Source: Luteibacter sp. Sphag1AF (GTDB lineage Bacteria > Pseudomonadota > Gammaproteobacteria > Xanthomonadales > Rhodanobacteraceae). Taken from it: a stretch of DNA of 64,000 nt. A program made the position numbers and the translations under genes. The stretch is taken from positions 372,001 through 436,000 of the forward strand of contig NZ_JACHYH010000002.1 in the NCBI RefSeq assembly GCF_014192715.1, given 5' to 3'. Below are positions 8,646-18,257 of this stretch, one piece after another (the first letter of the stretch is position 1; each line of letters opens with the position of its first letter). The notes under the pieces were generated by a model, which ran no database searches, was not told where the DNA came from, and was given only the letters and a program-made list of their open reading frames with translations.

Positions 8646-9764
8646 TCAAAGCGCGACCAGATCGTCGCGATGGATGATGTTTTCGCCGTAGCTGTAACCG
8701 AGTATGGACTCGATCTCGCGCGTGTGGCGCCCGAACAACCGATGGATATCGGTGGCCGCGTACTGACTGACCCCCCGCCCGATCACGCCGCCGTCGGGGT
8801 CGACAATCTCCACCACATCGCCACGCGCGAACTCGCCCTCCGAGCGCACGACGCCTCCAGGAAGCAGCGAGGCGCCCCGTTCGCGCAACGCGATGCGCGC
8901 ACCCGCATCCACCACGATCCGCCCGCCTGCCGGTGCATGGCGCAACCAGTACTTTCGCGCGGCCAGCCGCGTGCGCGCCGCGTGGATACGCGTGCCGTAC
9001 AGGCGCCCTTCGCCCAACGCCCGTGCCACCTCGCCACTGGTGCCGTCGAACAGCACGGTGTCGATACCTGCGGCTGCGGCTTTTTCGGCGGCTTCCAGCT
9101 TGGTGCGCATGCCGCCGGTTCCTGACCGCGTGCCACTGCCACCCGCCATCGCAAACAGCTCAGGCGTGATGGCCGCCACATCCGCGATGGGCACGGCGTC
9201 GGGCGACGTGCGCGGATTGGCGCTGTACAGGCCGCCGATGTCGCTGGCGATCATCAGCAGGTCGGCATCGACCAGCGCGGCGACGATGGCGGCAAGATTG
9301 TCGTTGTCGCCGAGCTTCAGCTCGTCGACGGCCACCGTGTCGTTTTCGTTGATGACGGGAATGACCCGAAGCGCGAGCAATTCGCGAAGCGTGCTACGCG
9401 CATTGAGATAGCGGCGGCGATGGCGCAGGTCGTCGTGCGTGAGCAGCACCTGGGCCACGGGTTCGTCGAAGAAACTCTGCCACAGAGCCATGAGGCGACT
9501 CTGTCCAATGGCGGCCAGCGCCTGGCGGGCGGGAAGCGCCGTGGGCGAGGAAGGGCCGGCCAGCGCGCGGCCCGCAGCGACGGCCCCCGAAGAGACAATG
9601 ACCACGTCCCTCCCCTGCGCACGGCTCTGGCGCACGAATGCCGCCAGGGCGGCGGCGTAACGAGGACTCAAACCACCGTTGTCGGCAGCAAGCAGGCTGC
9701 TGCCGACCTTCAGTACCGCACGCCGCCAGGATGGCAGCATCTGTTCCTCGAACCGAATTGCCAT
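8646..9764 (-). CDS. proB: Glutamate 5-kinase
   Basis: ProB phosphorylates glutamate in the first step of proline synthesis and is the usual point of proline feedback. The 372-residue protein has the amino-acid kinase fold ([10 protein letters not shown] near the start, [12 protein letters not shown], then [18 protein letters not shown]) and a C-terminal PUA domain (about residues 280-360). ATG 9764 is preceded by GGGGAG. It is placed between argH and proA, so arginine and proline synthesis, both from glutamate, share one transcript here. Confidence 0.97.
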
Positions 9765-9787
9765 CCCGCTCCCCTTTTACACGTCGA

Positions 9788-11077
9788 TCAGCTCCGGCTA
9801 AGACGCGCGCGAAGCACGTCCAGACGCAGATCATGTCCGGCGCCCGGCGAGACACGCGCCGCCAGGCTGGATTCGGGCGTACGCCCCTCACCCGCCGACG
9901 CGGCCGTTTCCGCCGCCGCGCGATAGGCATCGCGGAACGGCACGCCGGCCACGGCCTGCTCGATAGCCACGTCCGTGGCGTACATGGCAGGTTCGATGGC
10001 GGCACGCATACGCTCGGCCTTCCATTCCATGCGGGCCAGCATGTCCGGCAGAAGTTCCAGCGCGGCCAGACCGTGTGTGAAGCCATGGAACAGCGAGCCC
10101 TTGGAGAACTGCAGGTCGCGCTGGTAGCCGGAGGGGAGCGACAGCAACTGCTCGATCTCCGTGCGCGCAGCGGCCACGGCCGCGTAGCTGCCACGCAGCA
10201 GTTCCACCACGTCCGGATTACGCTTGTTCGGCATGATGGACGAACCGGTGGTGTACTCGCCCGGCAGGCGCACGAAGTCGAACTCGGCTGTCGTGAACAG
10301 CGACAGATCCCATGCCAGGCGACGTGTATCGAGCAACGCCGTCCCCACGGCGTCCAGCGCTGCCATTTCAAATTTGCCGCGCGACAGCTGCGCGTAGATC
10401 GGCGAAATCTGCATGCGGGCAAAGTCCAGGCGCTGAGTCGTATGCTCGCGATCCAGCGCCACGTTCACGCCATAGCCCGCGGCCGTGCCCAGCGGATTGG
10501 CATCAATCCAGTCCAGTGCCTGGCGCGCACGCAGCGTGTTGTCGATGAAGGCCTCGGCGAATGCCGCGAACCACATGCCCGTGGACGACACCACGGCGCG
10601 CTGGATATGCGTATAGCCGGGCATCGGCAGGGCATCGCCAGCGGCACGATCCAGGCAGACCTCGGCCACCTGGCGGCACGTGGCTTCCAGCGTGGTGAGC
10701 TGTTCTTTCAGCCACAGACGCGTGGCCACCAGAATCTGGTCGTTACGGCTGCGACCGGTGTGCACGCGACGCCCAGCGTCACCCAGGCGTTCGGTCAGGC
10801 GCGCCTCGATGGCCGAGTGGCCATCTTCAAAGCGCTCGTCAAGAATGAACTGGCCCGCCGAAAAATCGGCAGCCAGCGCATCCAGTTCGCGCAGCAGCGC
10901 ATCGCGTTCGTCGGTGGATACCACGCCGATGTTCGCGAGTCCTTCCACGTGCGCCTTGCTGGCGACGATGTCGTGCAGGAAAAACTCGCGATCAAGAACC
11001 ACGTCGTTGCCGGCGAGGAAGCGCATGATGCGCGGATCGACCTTGCTGTCGGATTTCTGCCAGAGCGGCTGGGTCAT
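9788..11077 (-). CDS. argH: Argininosuccinate lyase
   Basis: ArgH splits argininosuccinate into arginine and fumarate, the last step of the pathway. The 429-residue protein carries the fumarase/aspartase-superfamily signature [13 protein letters not shown] at about 277-289, with HTGRSRNDQ near 106-113 and YTHIQ at 155-159. I place the start at ATG 11077 because it lies 13 bases after the argC stop and begins with MTQPLWQKS, as in relatives; an upstream ATG (11119) would overlap argC by 29 bases. The protein is a little shorter than the E. coli enzyme, as is common in this group. Confidence 0.97.
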
Positions 11078-11090
11078 CGTGATGGGCCTT

Positions 11091-12038
11091 TCAAACCGGA
11101 ATGGAGGTGTATTCGTCAAAACCGAGCGTGCGGTTCACGTTCTGCATGGCCTGGGTGGCAGCACCCTTCAGCAGATTGTCCAGCGTGGCTACAACGACCA
11201 CGCGACGGCCATCGGCAGACATCTCGAAGGCGCCGATTTCCACGTGATGCCTGTTGGCAATGCGGCTGACCCACGGCGCATCGTCCAGCACAGTGACGAG
11301 CTTTTCGTTCTTGTAGGCGCCATGGAAGCGTGCCACCACTTCATCGCGCTTCATGGGACGGGCGAGGTAAAGATTGGTCGTGACGGTCAGGCCGCGGAAA
11401 TGAGGTGCAACGTGCGGCATGAATTCCACAGGCACGCCAAGGTGACGGCTGGCTTCGCGCTCGTGCATGTGACCGGTCAGCGAGTACGGCATGAGGTTGT
11501 CGCGGAGTTTTTCCGGGTCGTTGCGATCCGAGGGCGTGGTGCCCGCTCCCGAATAGCCCGACACGCCGAAGCACACGGGCGGTGCGGCCAGCATGTCCTT
11601 GATGGGAGCAATCGACAACTGCACAGCCGTGGCGTAGCAGCCCGGGTTACTCACGCGCTTCTCGCCGCGCCACCGCTCGCGATAAAGCTCCGGCAGGCCG
11701 TAATACCAGCGCTCGTCGAAGCGATAGTCGGCCGACAGATCAACGATGACCATATCGCCAGCTGCCGCGTCGATGGCTTCGACAAACGGCTTGGCCGCAC
11801 CGTTGGGCAGAGCAAGGATGACCACGTTCACACCCGAGGCAGCAACCGCTGCCGCATCGAGATTCGTGAAATGAAGCTCGCCCTGGTAAGCCTCGTTGTG
11901 ATCGGCCAGACGCTGGCCGGCGAGTTCACGCGACGACACGAAGGCAAGCTCAAGGCCAGGATGGTTCGCTACAAGGCGAATGAGTTCGGCGCCCGTGTGA
12001 CCGCGCGCGCCGACGATACCGATGGTTTTCTTCGACAT
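11091..12038 (-). CDS. argC: N-acetyl-gamma-glutamyl-phosphate reductase
   Basis: ArgC reduces N-acetylglutamyl phosphate to the semialdehyde with NADPH. The 315-residue protein starts with a Rossmann motif ([14 protein letters not shown]) and has the catalytic cysteine in NPGCYAT (Cys134). A conserved SGYSGAGT segment and HMHE near residue 190 also fit. It follows argB by only 4 bases and is followed by argH, so it belongs to the same operon. Length and motifs are as expected for the short (type 2-like) bacterial form. Confidence 0.97.
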
Positions 12039-12042
12039 GGAA

Positions 12043-13359
12043 TCAGTCCGTCAGGGTGGCGGCGCGCGTGCCGCTGTGGTTCACGCAGGCTTCGATATCG
12101 GCGAAGTTGTCCAGCCCATACCAGAACACCTTCCAGCGATCCTGCTTGAAGCAGCCGTCGGATTCAGCGTAGTAGAAATGATTGATGATGTTGCCGTGGC
12201 GCGAACGCCAGAACAGCTTCGGGTTTTCATCGCGCATCACCTGCCACACGGCGCGACCGAGGCCTTCGCCCTGGGCCTCGTCGAGCACGGCGAACTTGTC
12301 CAGGTACGCGAAGCCGCCCTCGTTGGTGAGGATCATCGCAGCGCGATAGTTTTCACTGACGTAGAGGCGATACAGCTTTGTGCGGCTGAAATAGTCTTCC
12401 ACCAGCGTGCGGCCGAAGCTCGATTCAATGAGTTCGCGCATGCGCGTCAGGTCCACGCCCTCCCACGACTCGAAACGCAGCACGCGCTCACCGCGACGCA
12501 CCAGCGTGCCCGAACCCTTGTGCGTGAACAGTTCCTTGGCAAGCTCGGACGGACGCGTGATCGACACCGACGAGGTCAGCGGCAGATCGTCCAGCAGGTC
12601 CTTGATCTGCTCGATCTTCAGGCGCATGCCCGAATGCAGCCACGGCTGCGCGAGCAACTGGTCGTATTCGGTGGAGAGGTTGATCGAGTCGATGATCTCG
12701 CCTTCGCCGTTCAACAGGCCGCCGGTGCCGGTAAGGAACACGATCTTGTACGGCTGCAACACGCGCACCAGTTCGTTTGCGGCGAAGTCCGCATTGATGT
12801 TGAGGATCTGGCCAGCGTCGGTTTCACCCAGGCTGGCGATCACGGGAATGGACCCCGCACGCAGGCTCGCCTCGATGGGAGCGAGGTTGATCTCGCGCAC
12901 CTTCCCAACCAGACCGTAGGTTTCCGGATCGAGATAGTCGGCCGTGAACACACCGGACGGTACGGAGGTGGCGCGCGTATCGGCTTCCTGCAGTGCCTCG
13001 ACCAGACGCAGGTTCTGCGACTGGAACACCTTGCGCACAATAGCCAGCGCTTCGGGTGTGGTTACCCGCAAACCATGAACCGTGTGCTTTTCGATGCCGG
13101 CAGCCGACAGCTCTTCGTCCAGCTGCGGACCCGCGCCATGCAGCACGATGGGCGTGAGGCCCACCTGTTGCAGGAACGCCAGCGACGAGGTCAGCGCGGG
13201 AAGATCATCGCGCAGCACGGCACCGCCCACTTTCACGACGGCAAAGCGCTTCGCATCCAGCTGCGAGAAGCGCTTCAGGTACTGCTGGATCTCGCGCGCG
13301 CTGCCCATGCTGGACAGCAGGCGGACGATGGTCTTGCGGGTGTGCTTATGCGTTTCCAC
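12043..13359 (-). CDS. argB: Bifunctional N-acetylglutamate kinase/synthase (NAGK-NAGS fusion)
   Basis: This 438-residue protein joins an amino-acid-kinase domain (about 1-285; [35 protein letters not shown]) with a C-terminal GNAT domain (about 290-438) of the NAGS type. Such NAGS/K proteins, known from Xanthomonas, Xylella and Maricaulis, make N-acetylglutamate and phosphorylate it, and can be controlled by arginine. The start is uncertain: GTG 13359 has GGA nine bases upstream; TTG 13365 adds two residues. The gene overlaps argE by about 14 bases. No separate argA is seen in the operon, which agrees with the fusion supplying both activities. Confidence 0.93.
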
Positions 13360-14446
13360 TTTCAACGATCCGGTAGATGGTTTGCGCGTAGTGCTGCAGC
13401 TGGTCGAGAGCGACCCATTCGTCGGCCGTGTGCGCCTGGGCGATGTCTCCCGGGCCGTACACGAAGGAGGTGTAACCGGCAGCGGAGAACAGCGCTGCTT
13501 CGGTCCAGAAGTCCACGGCGTTGCCTACCGGAATCTCCAGTTCATCGGCAATATCGCGCGCGGCAAGGCGACGGGTTTCGGCCGAAGCCGTGTCGCCTGC
13601 GGGCAGCGAGTCGCCGCGGAAGGTTTCACCGAAGGTCACCGGCGCCGGCTCCACCAGCGTGCGGAAGGTTTCCAGCATCTGGTCCGGATTCATCGTCGGC
13701 AGCGGACGGAAGCCGAAACGGATGTCTGCGGTGGGCGCAATGACGTTGGCCTTGATGCCGCCTTCGACCTTGCCGATGTTGAAGCGCAGACCGGTGAGGC
13801 CGCCGAAGCGCTCATGCGACTGCGCCTGGACGAAGTCGAGTGCCGCCGCGCCCCAGCGAATGGCCTGATGCAGCGCGCTGTCGCTGGGCTTCTGGTCGCC
13901 GGAAGCGTGCCCTGCCCGGCCGCTGAAGCTCATCTGCACCGAATGGATGCCACGATGCGCCAGCACCGCTTCGCCCTTCGTCGGCTCGGCGACGATGATG
14001 GCGGCATAGTCACGTGGCGTCTTCAGGAAGCCCTCGATGCAACGCGCGTCGTTGGCTTCCTCGTCGGTGGACAGCAGCAGCGCCATGTCGCCCTGCGACG
14101 CGTTGGCTACCGCCACCAGCGCGGCCGCCGCGCCCTTGATGTCGCACGAACCCAGACCCACCGCGCGATCCGCGCCCACGCGCAGCTCGAACGGGCTGGC
14201 CGTCCAGTGCGGGGAGTCCGGCACCGTGTCCAGATGCACATTGAACAGATACTTCGGCTTGCCCCGCACCGCGTAGAGATTCACGGCACCGGCGCCGAAA
14301 TCGACCACCTGGACTTCAAAACCCGGAAGTACCGAGGTCAGGTAATCGAAAATGCCACCGGTACCAATGGTTCGCGGCGGGTTGCGCGTGTCGAACCCGA
14401 CCAGCGCGCGCAGATGGGTCAGGGTATCGTCCAGTAGCTTGTTCAT
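13346..14446 (-). CDS. argE: N-acetylcitrulline/N-acetylornithine deacetylase (M20 family)
   Basis: This M20 metallopeptidase-like deacetylase of 366 residues has the metal-binding motifs [12 protein letters not shown] (His and Asp) and LSTDEEAND (paired Glu), with a dimerisation domain in the middle. Because the operon encodes N-acetylornithine carbamoyltransferase (16159-17193) rather than ornithine carbamoyltransferase, the natural substrate is probably N-acetylcitrulline, as shown for the Xanthomonas enzyme. ATG 14446 overlaps the GNAT gene stop by 4 bases (ATGA), and its end overlaps argB. The substrate assignment is from context. Confidence 0.92.
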
Positions 14447-14901
14447 GAGGTTCCGTTGATGGCGGCCAGTCCGGCCGCGTCCGTATAGACGTCCGGATGG
14501 TAACGCTCCATGAGCGTTTCCGGCCGGGTGGGACGGTTGAATCCGAACAGCTGATACAGCGTATGGGCATCCGATGTCGCCAGCATGAAACGACGCAGCC
14601 CCTGCAAGTCAGGACAGGCCATCACGGCTTCCATGAGCCGCTTTGAATAGCCCTTTCCTCGATGCTCTGGCAGCACGAACACATCGGCCAGATAGGCAAA
14701 CGTGGCCCGGTCAGTCGTTACCCGCGCGAACGCGACCTGCTGATCGCCGAGGTAGCCGCCGAAACACAGCGAGTGTTCGATCGACCGCTCCACGATATCG
14801 CGGGAAATGCCCTTCGCCCATGCCGTCTGCGTGGAAAGGAAGGCATGCACGAGCCCGATATCGAGCTCGTGCTTTTCCATGCTGATCCGCAGCTCGCTCA
14901 C
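14443..14901 (-). CDS. GNAT-family N-acetyltransferase embedded in the arg operon
   Basis: The 152-residue protein is a single GNAT domain with the acetyl-CoA binding signature [15 protein letters not shown] (motif A) and a typical C-terminal Tyr-Gln-Leu-Phe-Gly-Phe segment. Its GTG start (14901) overlaps the argG stop as GTGA, a mark of coupling; an ATG at 14880 is an alternative start. Its stop overlaps argE as ATGA. The substrate is unknown. The fused NAGS domain already provides acetylglutamate synthesis, so a second acetyltransferase in the operon is unexplained and may act on another acetylated intermediate or on a protein. Confidence 0.88.
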
Positions 14902-16100
14902 TTGGTCTGACGATCCACTTCAGCCCACACCGTGGAGCTCATGCCGTAGAGCTTGATGAAGCCCTCGGCTTCCGCCACGCCCCAATCGGCTGCCTGTGCA
15001 TAGGTAGCCTTCGAGGTCTGCAGGATATTCTTCGATTCGACCTTCACGGCATACACGGAACCGCCGCGCGTTTCGATGATGACCGTGCCATCGACCTTGC
15101 GCTGGGTAGAGACCAGATAGGCTTCCAGATCGGCCTTGATGGGGTCGTTGAAGAAGCCCTCGTATGCCACTTCCGTCCACTTGCGGCCAATTTCCGGCTT
15201 GAAGCGGTTCTGCTGCTTGCTGAGCACGGTTTCTTCCAGCGCACGATGCGCCGTGAGAAGCGCCGTGAGTGCCGGTGCCTCGAACACGATGCGGCCCTTC
15301 AGGCCGATGTTGGTATCGCCCGTGTACAAGCTGCGACCCACGCCGTACTTCGCCAGTTCATGGTTGAGGTACTGGAGAATTTCCGGACCCGACGCCGGCT
15401 TGCCGTTGAGCGACACTGCGGTGCCCTTCTCGAAGCCCAGTGAAATCTGCTTCGGTTCCACCGGCCATTCGCTGCGCGGTGCGCACCAGCCGATGGCGCC
15501 CTCACCCGGGATTTCCCATGCGTCGATTTCGCCGCCAGAGATGGTCACACCCAGAACGTTCTCGTTGATGGTGTAGTGCTTGGTCTTGGCGCGGACTTCA
15601 AAGCCCTTGTCTTCCAGGTACTTCTGCTCGTACGCACGGACCTGCGTGTGTTCGCGCTGAATTTCGCGGATCGGCGCGATGATCGTGTAGTCACCCAGCG
15701 CCTTTACCGTGAGGTCGAAACGCACCTGATCGTTACCCATGCCGGTGCAGCCGTGCGCGAAGAGCTTCGTGCCCAGTTCGTCGCAACGCTTCAGTGATTC
15801 CTGCACGATCAGGTAACGGTCAGACACCAGCAGCGGGTACTGGCCCTGATAGAACTCACCTGCCCAGATCAGCGGCGTGACGAAGCTGTCCCAGATGGCC
15901 TGGCCTGCGTCTGCCGTGCGATGCGAAGCGGCGCCCAGTTCGATGGCGCGCTGCTCGATGTACTCGCGCTCTTCAGCCGACACACCACCGGTATCAACGA
16001 ACACGGTATGCACGTTGTAGCCGCGCTCCATGAGGTAAGGCACGCAGAAGCTGGTGTCGAGGCCGCCGGAAAACGCGAGGACGATATCTTTGCTGGACAT
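14898..16100 (-). CDS. argG: Argininosuccinate synthase
   Basis: ArgG joins citrulline and aspartate using ATP. The 400-residue protein opens with the N-type ATP pyrophosphatase loop ([10 protein letters not shown], about residues 8-17) and has [13 protein letters not shown] around 116-128, both family hallmarks. It is on the long-form bacterial branch. It follows argF' after 58 bases and is coupled to the GNAT gene by overlapping stop and start. In this pathway citrulline must first be freed from N-acetylcitrulline by the deacetylase downstream. Confidence 0.98.
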
Positions 16101-16158: not shown

Positions 16159-17193
16159 TCAGAAACCGAGGCCGGACTTCTGTGCCTGCGAATGCGCCAT
16201 GAGCGACGCCATCACGGCCTTCTGCACGTGCAGACGGTTCTCTGCCTCGTCGATGGCGATGCACGCCGGCGAATCCATGACGGCATCGGTCGCCTTGACG
16301 TTACGGCGGAGCGGCAGGCAGTGGCTGAACAGACCGTTGTTGGTGAGCGCCATCTTGGCCTCGTCAACAATGAAGTGCCTGTTGGCCTCGCGGATGGCCT
16401 TCTCTTCGTCCCAGCGGCCGAAGAACGGGATCGCGCCCCAGCTCTTCGCGTAGATGACGTCGGCATCGCGGTAGGACGCTTCGATGTCATGAGACACCTT
16501 CAGCGAGCCGCCGTTTTCACGCGCGTTGGCCTTCGCAAATTCCATGTAGCGCTCGTCGAGCACATAGTCCGGCGTGGGACACAGGAGGGTGACGTCCATG
16601 CCCATCTTCGTCGCGATCATCAGCGCCGAGTTGGCCACGGCGGTGTTCAGCGGCTTGGGGTGGTACGTCCAGGTGAGAACGTATTTGCGGTTCTGCAAAT
16701 TGCCCAGGTGCTCTTTCAGCGCCAGCGCGTGGGCCAGCTCCTGGCACGGGTGAGTGATCGTTTCCAGATTGATGACCGGTACCGTCGCGTAGTGGGCAAA
16801 GGCCTTCAGCACCTTGTCTTCGCGGTCGACCGACCAGTCCACGAACTTCGGGAAGGCGCGTACGGCAATGATGTCCACATAGCGCGACAGCACACGCGCC
16901 ACTTCGGCAATGTGCTCTTCGGTATCACCGTCCATCACGCTGCCCACCTCGAACTCGATGGGCCATGCGTCCTTGCCCGGCGACAGCACGATGGCGTGAC
17001 CGCCCAGTTGGAACGCCCCTAGCTCAAAGCTGGTGCGCGTGCGCATGGAGGGGTTGAAAAACATCAGCGCGATGGACTTGCCGGCCAGCTGGTGGCCTGC
17101 GGGCGAACGCTTGAACTCAGCGGCCTGCTCCAGCAGGGCGTCGATCTCGGCGCGGCTGTAATCCTGGGTGGAGAGGAAATGGCGAACGGTCAT
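16159..17193 (-). CDS. argF': N-acetylornithine carbamoyltransferase (AOTCase)
   Basis: This 344-residue enzyme transfers the carbamoyl group to N-acetylornithine, giving N-acetylcitrulline. The carbamoyl-phosphate loop SMRTRT lies at 49-54 and the HPCQ motif at 148-151. Features that separate AOTCase from ordinary OTCase are present: Glu92 in the DTEEH loop, a proline-rich WTYHPKPLNT loop (about 175-184), and HCLPLRRNVK with the lysine (about 300) that is carboxylated in the Xanthomonas enzyme. It is the first gene of the operon, with a 60-base stretch between the upstream attenuator hairpin and its ATG. Ornithine itself is therefore probably not the substrate. Confidence 0.95.
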   Translation of the reverse strand: MTVRHFLSTQDYSRAEIDALLEQAAEFKRSPAGHQLAGKSIALMFFNPSMRTRTSFELGAFQLGGHAIVLSPGKDAWPIEFEVGSVMDGDTEEHIAEVARVLSRYVDIIAVRAFPKFVDWSVDREDKVLKAFAHYATVPVINLETITHPCQELAHALALKEHLGNLQNRKYVLTWTYHPKPLNTAVANSALMIATKMGMDVTLLCPTPDYVLDERYMEFAKANARENGGSLKVSHDIEASYRDADVIYAKSWGAIPFFGRWDEEKAIREANRHFIVDEAKMALTNNGLFSHCLPLRRNVKATDAVMDSPACIAIDEAENRLHVQKAVMASLMAHSQAQKSGLGF

Positions 17194-17248: not shown

Positions 17249-17275
17249 AAAAACCCGGCACGTGGCCGGGTTTTT
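17249..17275 (-). terminator. Intrinsic terminator in the arg operon leader
   Basis: Read on the minus strand, an 11-bp stem (AAAAACCCGGC, loop CACGT, GCCGGGTTTTT) runs directly into a T tract, the shape of a Rho-independent terminator. It lies 56 bases before the argF' start and after the leader peptide, so it stands inside the transcript rather than at its end. Its 5' arm can instead pair with the leader (see the antiterminator at 17308-17318). The upstream gene at 17508 has its own terminator, so this hairpin is best read as an attenuator. Confidence 0.75.
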
Positions 17276-17305
17276 AGTCGATACGTATGAATCGCGCGCG
17301 ACAGC

Positions 17306-17410
17306 CTACCCGGCCATGTGTCCGATGTACGGTCGACGAGCACGCGAGGTCATTCCTGCGGCCATGCGGGCGCTGGTAAGGACATTCGCGGTGTAGACAG
17401 CGGTGGACAC
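17306..17410 (-). CDS. Putative arginine leader peptide of the arg operon
   Basis: A short frame ends in TAG at 17306-17308 and reads ...TSRARRPYIGHMAG, with Arg codons CGT, CGT and CGA within four codons (17344-17333). With GTG 17410, which has AAGG eight bases upstream, the peptide is 34 residues with four arginines. In-frame ATGs at 17365 and 17353 would give 19 or 15 residues but have poor ribosome sites. The stop is 30 bases before the terminator stem. The last codons (CAC ATG GCC GGG TAG) overlap the segment able to form the antiterminator. This is the layout of ribosome-mediated attenuation. The exact start is uncertain. Confidence 0.55.
   Translation of the reverse strand: MSTAVYTANVLTSARMAAGMTSRARRPYIGHMAG
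17308..17318 (-). promoter_or_regulatory. Candidate antiterminator segment of the arg attenuator
   Basis: On the minus strand this segment (CATGGCCGGGT) is complementary to ACCCGGCCACG at 17271-17261, the 5' arm and loop of the terminator, in ten of eleven positions with nine pairs in a row. It spans the last codons and stop of the leader peptide. A ribosome paused at the Arg codons would leave it free to pair; a ribosome at the stop codon would cover it. Confidence 0.6.
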
Positions 17411-17434
17411 AAGGAGGGCCTTGGGAAGCTATGA

Positions 17435-17451
17435 GTCGGCATCATGCCGAC
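17435..17451. promoter_or_regulatory. Perfect 8+1+8 palindrome overlapping the arg promoter
   Basis: The sequence GTCGGCAT C ATGCCGAC is a perfect inverted repeat with a one-base centre. It covers the candidate -10 element of the arg operon promoter, so it may be a repressor site. It does not look like an E. coli-type ARG box. It could also be a chance structure. Confidence 0.4.
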
Positions 17452-17469
17452 AATTGGTGCGTCGCGCAA
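17441..17469 (-). promoter_or_regulatory. Candidate promoter of the arg/pro operon
   Basis: On the minus strand TTGCGC (17469-17464) is followed after 17 bases by CATGAT (17446-17441), each four of six to consensus. Transcription would start near 17434, giving a 24-base lead to the GTG of the leader peptide and an mRNA leader of about 240 bases before argF'. Confidence 0.4.
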
Positions 17470-17507: not shown

Positions 17508-18050
17508 TCAGTCGGCCGGGGCCACGCTGACGCGAACCCGGAGGCGCTCGCCCGGATCGTAATTCAGACGGGAAACATACACTTCGCCGCGATACCGATA
17601 TTCCACATCATATCCGGCGATGCGGCGCTGTTCCGAGATGGAACTGACGTCGCGGCAGCGGGTTTCCGTGCCCTGGTAGACCCGATCGTCGCCACGGCTG
17701 ACGTTGTTGCCGACCGCACCGCCCGCCACGGCGCCGATCACCGTGGCGGCCTTGCGACCGTCGCCCTTGCCGACCGTGTTGCCGAGGACGCCACCTACAA
17801 CGGCGCCCAGAATGGTGCCGGCGGTGCTGCCACTGCTCTGCTCACGGCGCACGACGGGCTGGTCGTAGCATTCCTGGCGCGGGGTCTCGACACGCGACAC
17901 ACCGTAGACCGGATCGACGCGCAGAACGTCGGCCCACCCGAAATGGGTGTTGTCGTCCTGCTGGGGAGGAGGCGGATAACGACCGTCTTGCGCGCTGGCG
18001 CCAGTGGCGACAAACGCGAGAAGGAATGCGGGAATGAGCAGGCGGGACAT
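17508..18050 (-). CDS. Glycine-zipper 2TM-domain outer-membrane/periplasmic protein
   Basis: The 180-residue protein has a signal peptide (MSRLLIPAFLLAFVATGASA) and a central glycine zipper (TAGTILGAVVGGVLGNTVG and KAATVIGAVAGGAVGNNV). The C-terminal part carries a cysteine and a beta-like DVEYRYRGEVYVSRL segment. This is the Rick_17kDa/glycine-zipper 2TM type found in many proteobacterial envelope proteins of unknown role. ATG 18050 is chosen because GGAGG stands eight bases upstream; an upstream start (18098) adds a basic stretch that breaks the signal peptide. Two cysteines (QECYDQP and TRCRDV) might form a disulfide. Confidence 0.85.
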   Translation of the reverse strand: MSRLLIPAFLLAFVATGASAQDGRYPPPPQQDDNTHFGWADVLRVDPVYGVSRVETPRQECYDQPVVRREQSSGSTAGTILGAVVGGVLGNTVGKGDGRKAATVIGAVAGGAVGNNVSRGDDRVYQGTETRCRDVSSISEQRRIAGYDVEYRYRGEVYVSRLNYDPGERLRVRVSVAPAD

Positions 18051-18257
18051 GTAGTGCGACCTCCGAAGGCGCGTTTCTTGCAGCGCTATAACTTGCATTT
18101 CACCAAGTTCACGCTGAATCCACGCTTAGAAATTCCCGGGCGAGCCCTCAAAAGCGTGTCAACCAAATGCCCGGATGTGCGTGGGAACTGTGGAAATGCC
18201 GCGCGCGGGCCTTGACTGGCTTGGTAATATCGGGGACTGGCCGATAACGGACTCCCG

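Follow-up and report, generated by a model that had tools for sequence, protein, structure and literature searches.

The window analysed here is a stretch of 64,000 nucleotides from the soil bacterium Luteibacter sp. Sphag1AF, and the element in question is a leader region that precedes its arginine biosynthesis cluster on the minus strand. The first structural gene of this cluster is argF' (16159..17193), of the N-acetylornithine carbamoyltransferase type. In the direction of transcription, a promoter-like pair, a leader open reading frame (ORF), an antiterminator segment and a terminator are followed by argF'. A first-pass annotation had interpreted this arrangement as a ribosome-mediated attenuator for the arginine operon. 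Conserved Arg codons, antiterminator and terminator, together with Arg-cluster leaders in sister families, support that interpretation; to it the current work adds a longer ORF, a conserved peptide core, a possible protector hairpin, the leaderless layout of many relatives, the missing ArgR and a link to the Rfam family RF02242.

The leader ORF encodes VSTAVYTANVLTSARMAAGMTSRARRPYIGHMAG, 34 amino acids running from GTG 17410 to TAG 17306, with the start assigned by conservation in relatives, most of which have ATG at this position. It is thus longer than originally drawn, although the Arg codons CGT-GCT-CGT-CGA (17344-17333) are where they had been placed. They close the conserved peptide core ARMAAGMTSRARR (17333..17371), whose Arg codons are CGT 17344-17342, CGT 17338-17336 and CGA 17335-17333. 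The intrinsic terminator, an 11-bp stem plus T tract, is present at 17275-17249 as annotated; it is the only one in 2 kb of the window, where shuffled sequences lead one to expect 1.7, so that a single terminator is within expectation. Its 5' arm contains ACCCGGCCA, to which the antiterminator 5' strand TGGCCGGGT is complementary in nine consecutive pairs. This strand occupies 17316-17308, taking in the end of the ORF and one base, the first, of its stop. Apart from the start of the ORF, the first-pass description stands. The promoter is less clear: a pair TTGCGC-17 nt-CATGAT is found at 17469-17441, and a TTGC-type −35 element with similar spacing lies upstream of many relatives' leaders, but a stricter consensus scan returned no promoter. 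Finally, a possible protector hairpin P1 (1:2; 17291..17347) would pair the Arg-codon region 17347-17330 with 17311-17291.

Conservation of the leader and its RNA elements

To begin with, argF loci were collected by protein similarity only, ignoring the leader, and the best 80 of 373 were kept; they come from named Luteibacter, Dyella, Rhodanobacter, Frateuria, Tahibacter and Dokdonella records and from metagenome-assembled genomes. The nearest argF relative, 95% identical, is that of Luteibacter rhizovicinus. The leader ORF was found upstream of argF in 79 of the 80 loci, the lone exception (L032) having upstream DNA too short for it (66 nt) and being excluded from all counts. A peptide profile built from 18 rows and run against 299 genomes of the order matched 178, including 76 of the window's family, and two further genomes of that kind checked apart were both positive. 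Second copies per genome were considered and rejected: each of the 21 genomes with two initial matches showed one strong place when re-searched, with a weak extra in three. Weak profile matches at L160-L162 (f8, f12 and f5) were likewise put down to chance, as no argF lies in that sequence. Outside the order the leader was not found, since the three matches among 274 genomes of the class all fell inside it, as did both argF matches at an E value of 1e-100 or better among 143 class genomes.

The window, the 79 named loci, 80 profile-fetched places and seven distant ones make up a set of 167 leader loci. In every one, argF follows on the same strand, 18–313 nt past the terminator. A terminator stem of at least eight pairs is likewise present in all 167, versus 26 of 835 shuffled regions. 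By this comparison the leader appears far more often than chance would allow. One member, at about positions 1-176 of L008, a contig end in the record of Dyella sp. ASV24, has a long C run that cuts the N-terminal part of the leader; the sequence after the run resembles what we take to be a sequencing adapter.

In alignment A3, which comprises 43 Xanthomonadaceae-type rows, the terminator helix is 99.8% paired; the antiterminator helix is 98.3% paired, compared with at most 52% when it is slid. The position of the antiterminator relative to the codons is also kept. Counted from the first base of the final Arg codon, the antiterminator starts 18–25 nt downstream in 164/167 loci; by a simple footprint rule, a ribosome decoding that codon would leave it free in 165, and one at the stop could reach it in all 167. 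Where the ORF ends early (e.g. L139, L144, L145 and L146), the antiterminator lies at or beyond the stop and is therefore not constrained by coding. Arm types agree as well: among 127 loci, CCCGGC goes with GCCGGG in 75/95 and CCCAGC with GCUGGG in 27/32. Aligning relatives was the check that the first-pass annotation had proposed, and the loss of conservation it had named as fatal did not appear, Arg codons, antiterminator and terminator all being kept. Covariation within the main families, however, depends on a small number of independent events on the argF tree.

Pairing between the Arg-codon region and the sequence around and past the stop is stronger than in shuffles (−21.7 vs −17.5 kcal), which suggests a protector hairpin between the two. 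The antiterminator strand is enclosed in 38/40, 40/43 and 5/9 folds, whose stability equals that of shuffles (mean z near 0). The window's lowest-energy fold encloses it through pairing other than P1.

The leader peptide and its codons

The conserved unit extends beyond the Arg codons alone to a peptide core, A-x-x-A-[AS]-G-M-T-S-R-A-R-R. To count conservation by residue, rows more than 93% alike were removed, leaving 92 non-redundant loci. In these, A(-5), A(-2) and G-M-T-S-R-A-R-R are invariant, although some rows had been chosen by the core itself, so that the invariance is overstated; indeed, L158 reads SMTSRARR, with S in place of G. Three or four synonymous codons occur at the Gly, Thr, Ala and first Arg of the core. 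Conservation falls off past the last Arg, where the following residue is Pro in 82/92. The Arg at -4 is replaced by Tyr or Trp in 18/92 loci, and its role is therefore not codon-based. The N-terminal part is variable in sequence but nearly constant in length: in 115/119 loci the start codon stands 16–18 codons ahead of the GMTSRARR Gly. Thus, conservation at the level of residues stands just before the presumed stall codon, as in arrest peptides, with the reservation about row selection made above. That this conservation stops at the last Arg suggests that the stall may be helped by the nascent peptide.

Codon choice within the core is equally narrow. The last Arg is the rare CGA in 165/167 loci; this codon accounts for 1.3% of the 2,386 Arg codons counted in 127 argF genes and, in ten genes of the window, for 1.5% of 270. 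Only CGU, CGC and CGA are used among the 501 core Arg codons; CGG, AGA and AGG never occur. The three codons used are all decoded by one tRNA, Arg-ICG. Separately, the Ser codon before the first core Arg is TCG in 166/167 leaders, compared with 37–44% of Ser codons in genes.

As a yardstick, leaders of other amino acid operons were sought in the same group. A probable ilv attenuator leader was found upstream of ilvC in seven of 24 loci (L229, L231, L235, L236, L239, L240 and L241, in Xanthomonadaceae-type genomes), its peptide ending in a LLVLVLITSPTGAGRTG-like sequence. This small yardstick is conserved in and past its Leu/Val/Ile run and variable before it. Upstream of hisG, 20 loci showed nothing resembling a His-run leader, leaving no his yardstick.

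Sister families, ArgR and the Xoo5 RNA

For the sister families, argF was sought in 28 genomes, almost all of them lacking the core, and matched in 26 of them at 27 places. All but one were examined, L310 being a second argF-like match. Of these 26 places, 15 with a terminator were taken further and 11 were set aside because they belonged to the main set already (L284), lay at contig ends (L286 and L293) or had no terminator that we could find (L287, L302, L304 and L305-L309). One of the 15, L285 (f4), is of the MTSRARR type. The other 14, from six sister families, have Arg-cluster leaders (up to RRRRR) with terminator and antiterminator. The leaders differ by family, namely PRRRRVLQSTAG in f7, LRRRRRSSQRRAG in f5, GRRARRTRRPLLAG in f8, VVVRRNRRRINMPG in f9, SSRRRRCVHPG in f10 and VVRRRPRPRIYAG in f11. 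All 15 hold 3–5 Arg within six codons (mean 4.1 vs 1.3 in shuffles), the clustering having p of at most 0.05 in 12/15, and the antiterminator z is below −1.5 in 12/15. In f9 and f11 the antiterminator tracks an altered terminator arm (CCAGGUU:AACCUGG and GCUGGGC:GCCCAGC).

ArgR (Pfam PF01316) was matched in only 8 of the 299 genomes of the order, all of them f12, and not in the other 291. None of the 178 genomes bearing the leader has a match, nor do any of the 21 in the window's family, the window's own genome included. In f12 (L305-L307; G031, G048 and G040) argF is distant, 39–41% identical, with ArgR about 1.2 kb away, and neither leader nor terminator was found upstream of it in the three genomes examined. 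Arginine attenuation operating where ArgR is missing would best account for the leader.

In addition, a previous report on Xanthomonas oryzae provides supportive evidence from the RNA side. RF02242 (Xoo5) scores above its gathering threshold exactly at the leader in 12 of the 20 loci searched, out of 40. The window's leader lies at the equivalent place but below the family threshold (18.9 bits vs 50). Leu_leader, tried as the Rfam family of the window's leader, was rejected (26.3 bits, threshold 50). As far as the available sections of the report go, sRNA-Xoo5 is a published small RNA (sRNA) with no stated role, whose 5' end was determined by rapid amplification of cDNA ends (RACE) and whose length is given as 124 nt (PMC3039613). 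Northern blots show bands of about 130 and 100 nt, of which the longer appears in early growth only, and both are the same in an hfq deletion (PMC3039613). It sits immediately upstream of PXO_00353, named N-acetylornithine carbamoyltransferase in a proteomics table; the words arginine, argF and leader are absent from the main text of the paper, which also lists no Xoo5-like sequence for Xylella (PMC3039613). No paper naming RF02242 turned up in the literature searched. RF02242/Xoo5 appears to be a piece of this leader, and the short RNA seen in vivo in Xanthomonas agrees with attenuation; it is consistent with termination, short of proof.

The alignment to RF02242 also bears on the 5' end. In L131, the best-matching locus, the model begins 2 nt upstream of the leader ATG, and the L131 mRNA would be practically leaderless if the RACE end coincides with that first base. 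From the end of a −10-like element to the start codon there are 6–10 nt in 73/167 loci and 23–30 nt in 76 (30 in the window); the element is further away in seven and was not found in 11.

Control of the arg cluster and alternatives

Ribosome-mediated attenuators are familiar from the trp, his, leu, ilv, thr and phe operons. Like them, the leader described here combines a peptide bearing cognate codons with an antiterminator and a terminator that exclude each other, and it stands before cognate biosynthetic genes; it differs in the amino acid, arginine, in the residue-conserved core of four families and in the leaderless or near-leaderless mRNA of many loci. An ORF with cognate codons stands before a biosynthetic gene, a terminator lies between them, and an exclusive antiterminator is placed for control by the ribosome, although a few loci mispair. 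On these grounds the leader is very probably a ribosome-mediated transcription attenuator that responds to arginine supply and governs the arg cluster from argF' onward. With ample charged tRNA-Arg, the ribosome would traverse R-A-R-R to the stop, a codon that overlaps the antiterminator strand, so that the terminator would form and transcription would end before argF'. When Arg-tRNA for CGU/CGC/CGA is short, the ribosome would stall at the Arg codons, chiefly at the rare CGA, and keep the protector pairing open, and the antiterminator strand would pair with the 5' arm of the terminator, allowing the arg genes to be transcribed. Less surely, the nascent chain of the GMTSRARR core may itself add to the stall, which for f1–f4 we regard as plausible yet somewhat doubtful. 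Sequence comparison itself reveals the ORF, its codons, the terminator, the antiterminator and their spacing, the recurrence in sister families and the absence of ArgR from most of the order; the stall, the switch and the response to arginine or Arg-tRNA are inferred from these.

Several observations weigh against attenuation. The core holds only three conserved Arg codons. The window's leader fold is ordinary (z −0.27 vs shuffles), and neither the protector hairpin nor the whole leader is stabler than shuffles. The antiterminator counts were equalled by 46/500 shuffles, pairing is imperfect at L080, L124, L294 and L296, and the argF tree of 127 loci holds two well-supported independent pair changes, or three with the traits exchanged, too few for a covariation test. 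Three loci with the same argF type, one in f6 (L287) and two in f10 (L302 and L304), lack a detectable terminator, and their genomes gave no ArgR match either. On the RNA side, the predicted terminated transcript of 155–157 nt is longer than the Xoo5 bands and the 124-nt clone (six loci), and the clone ends 3–5 nt before the hairpin in the same six, so that use of the terminator is not proven. Deletion of seven of the eight sRNAs, Xoo5 possibly among them, gave no obvious phenotype, according to the part of the report available (PMC3039613). The literature searched yielded no experiment on the response of the leader to arginine.

The ordinary fold is also what one would expect of a constitutive leader with a leaky terminator, in which peptide and pairing are non-regulatory; conservation across families, CGA in 165/167 loci, the fixed geometry and the recurrent Arg clusters leave that account with scarcely any credence. 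Only marginally better placed is the idea that Xoo5 and its relatives are trans-acting sRNAs whose position before argF' is incidental. Xoo5 was indeed published and curated as an sRNA, and its short Northern RNA is unaffected by hfq deletion in the portion of the report at hand (PMC3039613), but argF comes next in 167/167 loci, the ORF is conserved at the amino-acid level, the antiterminator is matched to the downstream terminator, and Arg-cluster leaders occupy the same place in sister families; we consider the idea very improbable. RF02242 Xoo5 shares with the leader its place before argF' and differs in having been described as an sRNA.

A stronger competitor holds that the leader works mainly as an arrest peptide in the window's family and the three families closest to it, with arginine or a related metabolite setting the stall and Arg-tRNA secondary. 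GMTSRARR stays invariant in the 92 loci despite synonymous codons, conservation drops past the last Arg, the Arg at -4 varies, and the N-terminal part has a fixed length with variable sequence, whereas the ilv leader varies before its regulatory run. However, row selection inflates this invariance (see L158), the ilv yardstick is small, and the plain Arg clusters of the sister families, with their unconserved flanks, point to Arg-tRNA sensing. We take this competitor seriously but lean against it. Arrest peptides such as TnaC and SecM, and the arginine attenuator peptide of fungi, share with the leader a conserved nascent chain before a presumed stall site. Here, however, an arrest is only predicted, and while the fungal peptide works at the level of translation when arginine is high, a stall in this leader should switch genes on. 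The two kinds of sensing could also be joined in one history. An arginine attenuator spread across most of the order may have replaced ArgR, and a GMTSRARR arrest peptide, with its rare CGA end and leaderless or short-leader mRNA, may have taken over from the Arg cluster in four families, the window's included, so that nascent chain and Arg-tRNA sensing would act jointly. We propose this history tentatively, rating its chances a little short of even.

Arginine control of related genes has been described by other routes. ArgR also places arg genes under arginine control, but as a DNA-binding protein. In Pseudomonas aeruginosa, the available passages describe leader-peptide attenuation of carAB tied to pyrimidines, with arginine control at the transcriptional level (PMC4997734); that leader resembles the present one in standing before an arginine-feeding gene and differs in the gene and the pyrimidine link. 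The Xanthomonas citri carAB promoter falls to 36% with arginine, according to the portion consulted of PMC4619228. This hints at arginine control elsewhere in a species that, judging from sampled genomes of its kin, would be without ArgR. No arginine attenuator in this group was among the matches listed, in a search that mostly left out subscription journals, where surveys of attenuators in proteobacteria have appeared, so that an earlier description is possible; the passages available from two surveys (PMC2965389 and PMC5343134) likewise describe none for this group. If the proposed attenuator is real, arginine joins the amino acids sensed by leader-peptide attenuation, a way is suggested in which an order mostly without ArgR could control arginine synthesis, and an unexplained Rfam sRNA becomes a cis-regulator. 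Leaders across the order would also form a natural series, with plain Arg clusters at one end and a peptide conserved by residue at the other, along which the step from codon to nascent-chain sensing becomes testable.

Downstream of argF', the minus-strand genes of the cluster up to proB extend over 8646..16100. From their translations we take them to be, in order, argG, a GNAT gene, argE-like, argB-like, argC (or argC-like), argH and proB. On the other side, a strong separate hairpin, CCGCCGCC..GGCGGCGG, lies on the minus strand at 17501-17473, after the upstream gene 17508-18098 and before the leader promoter.
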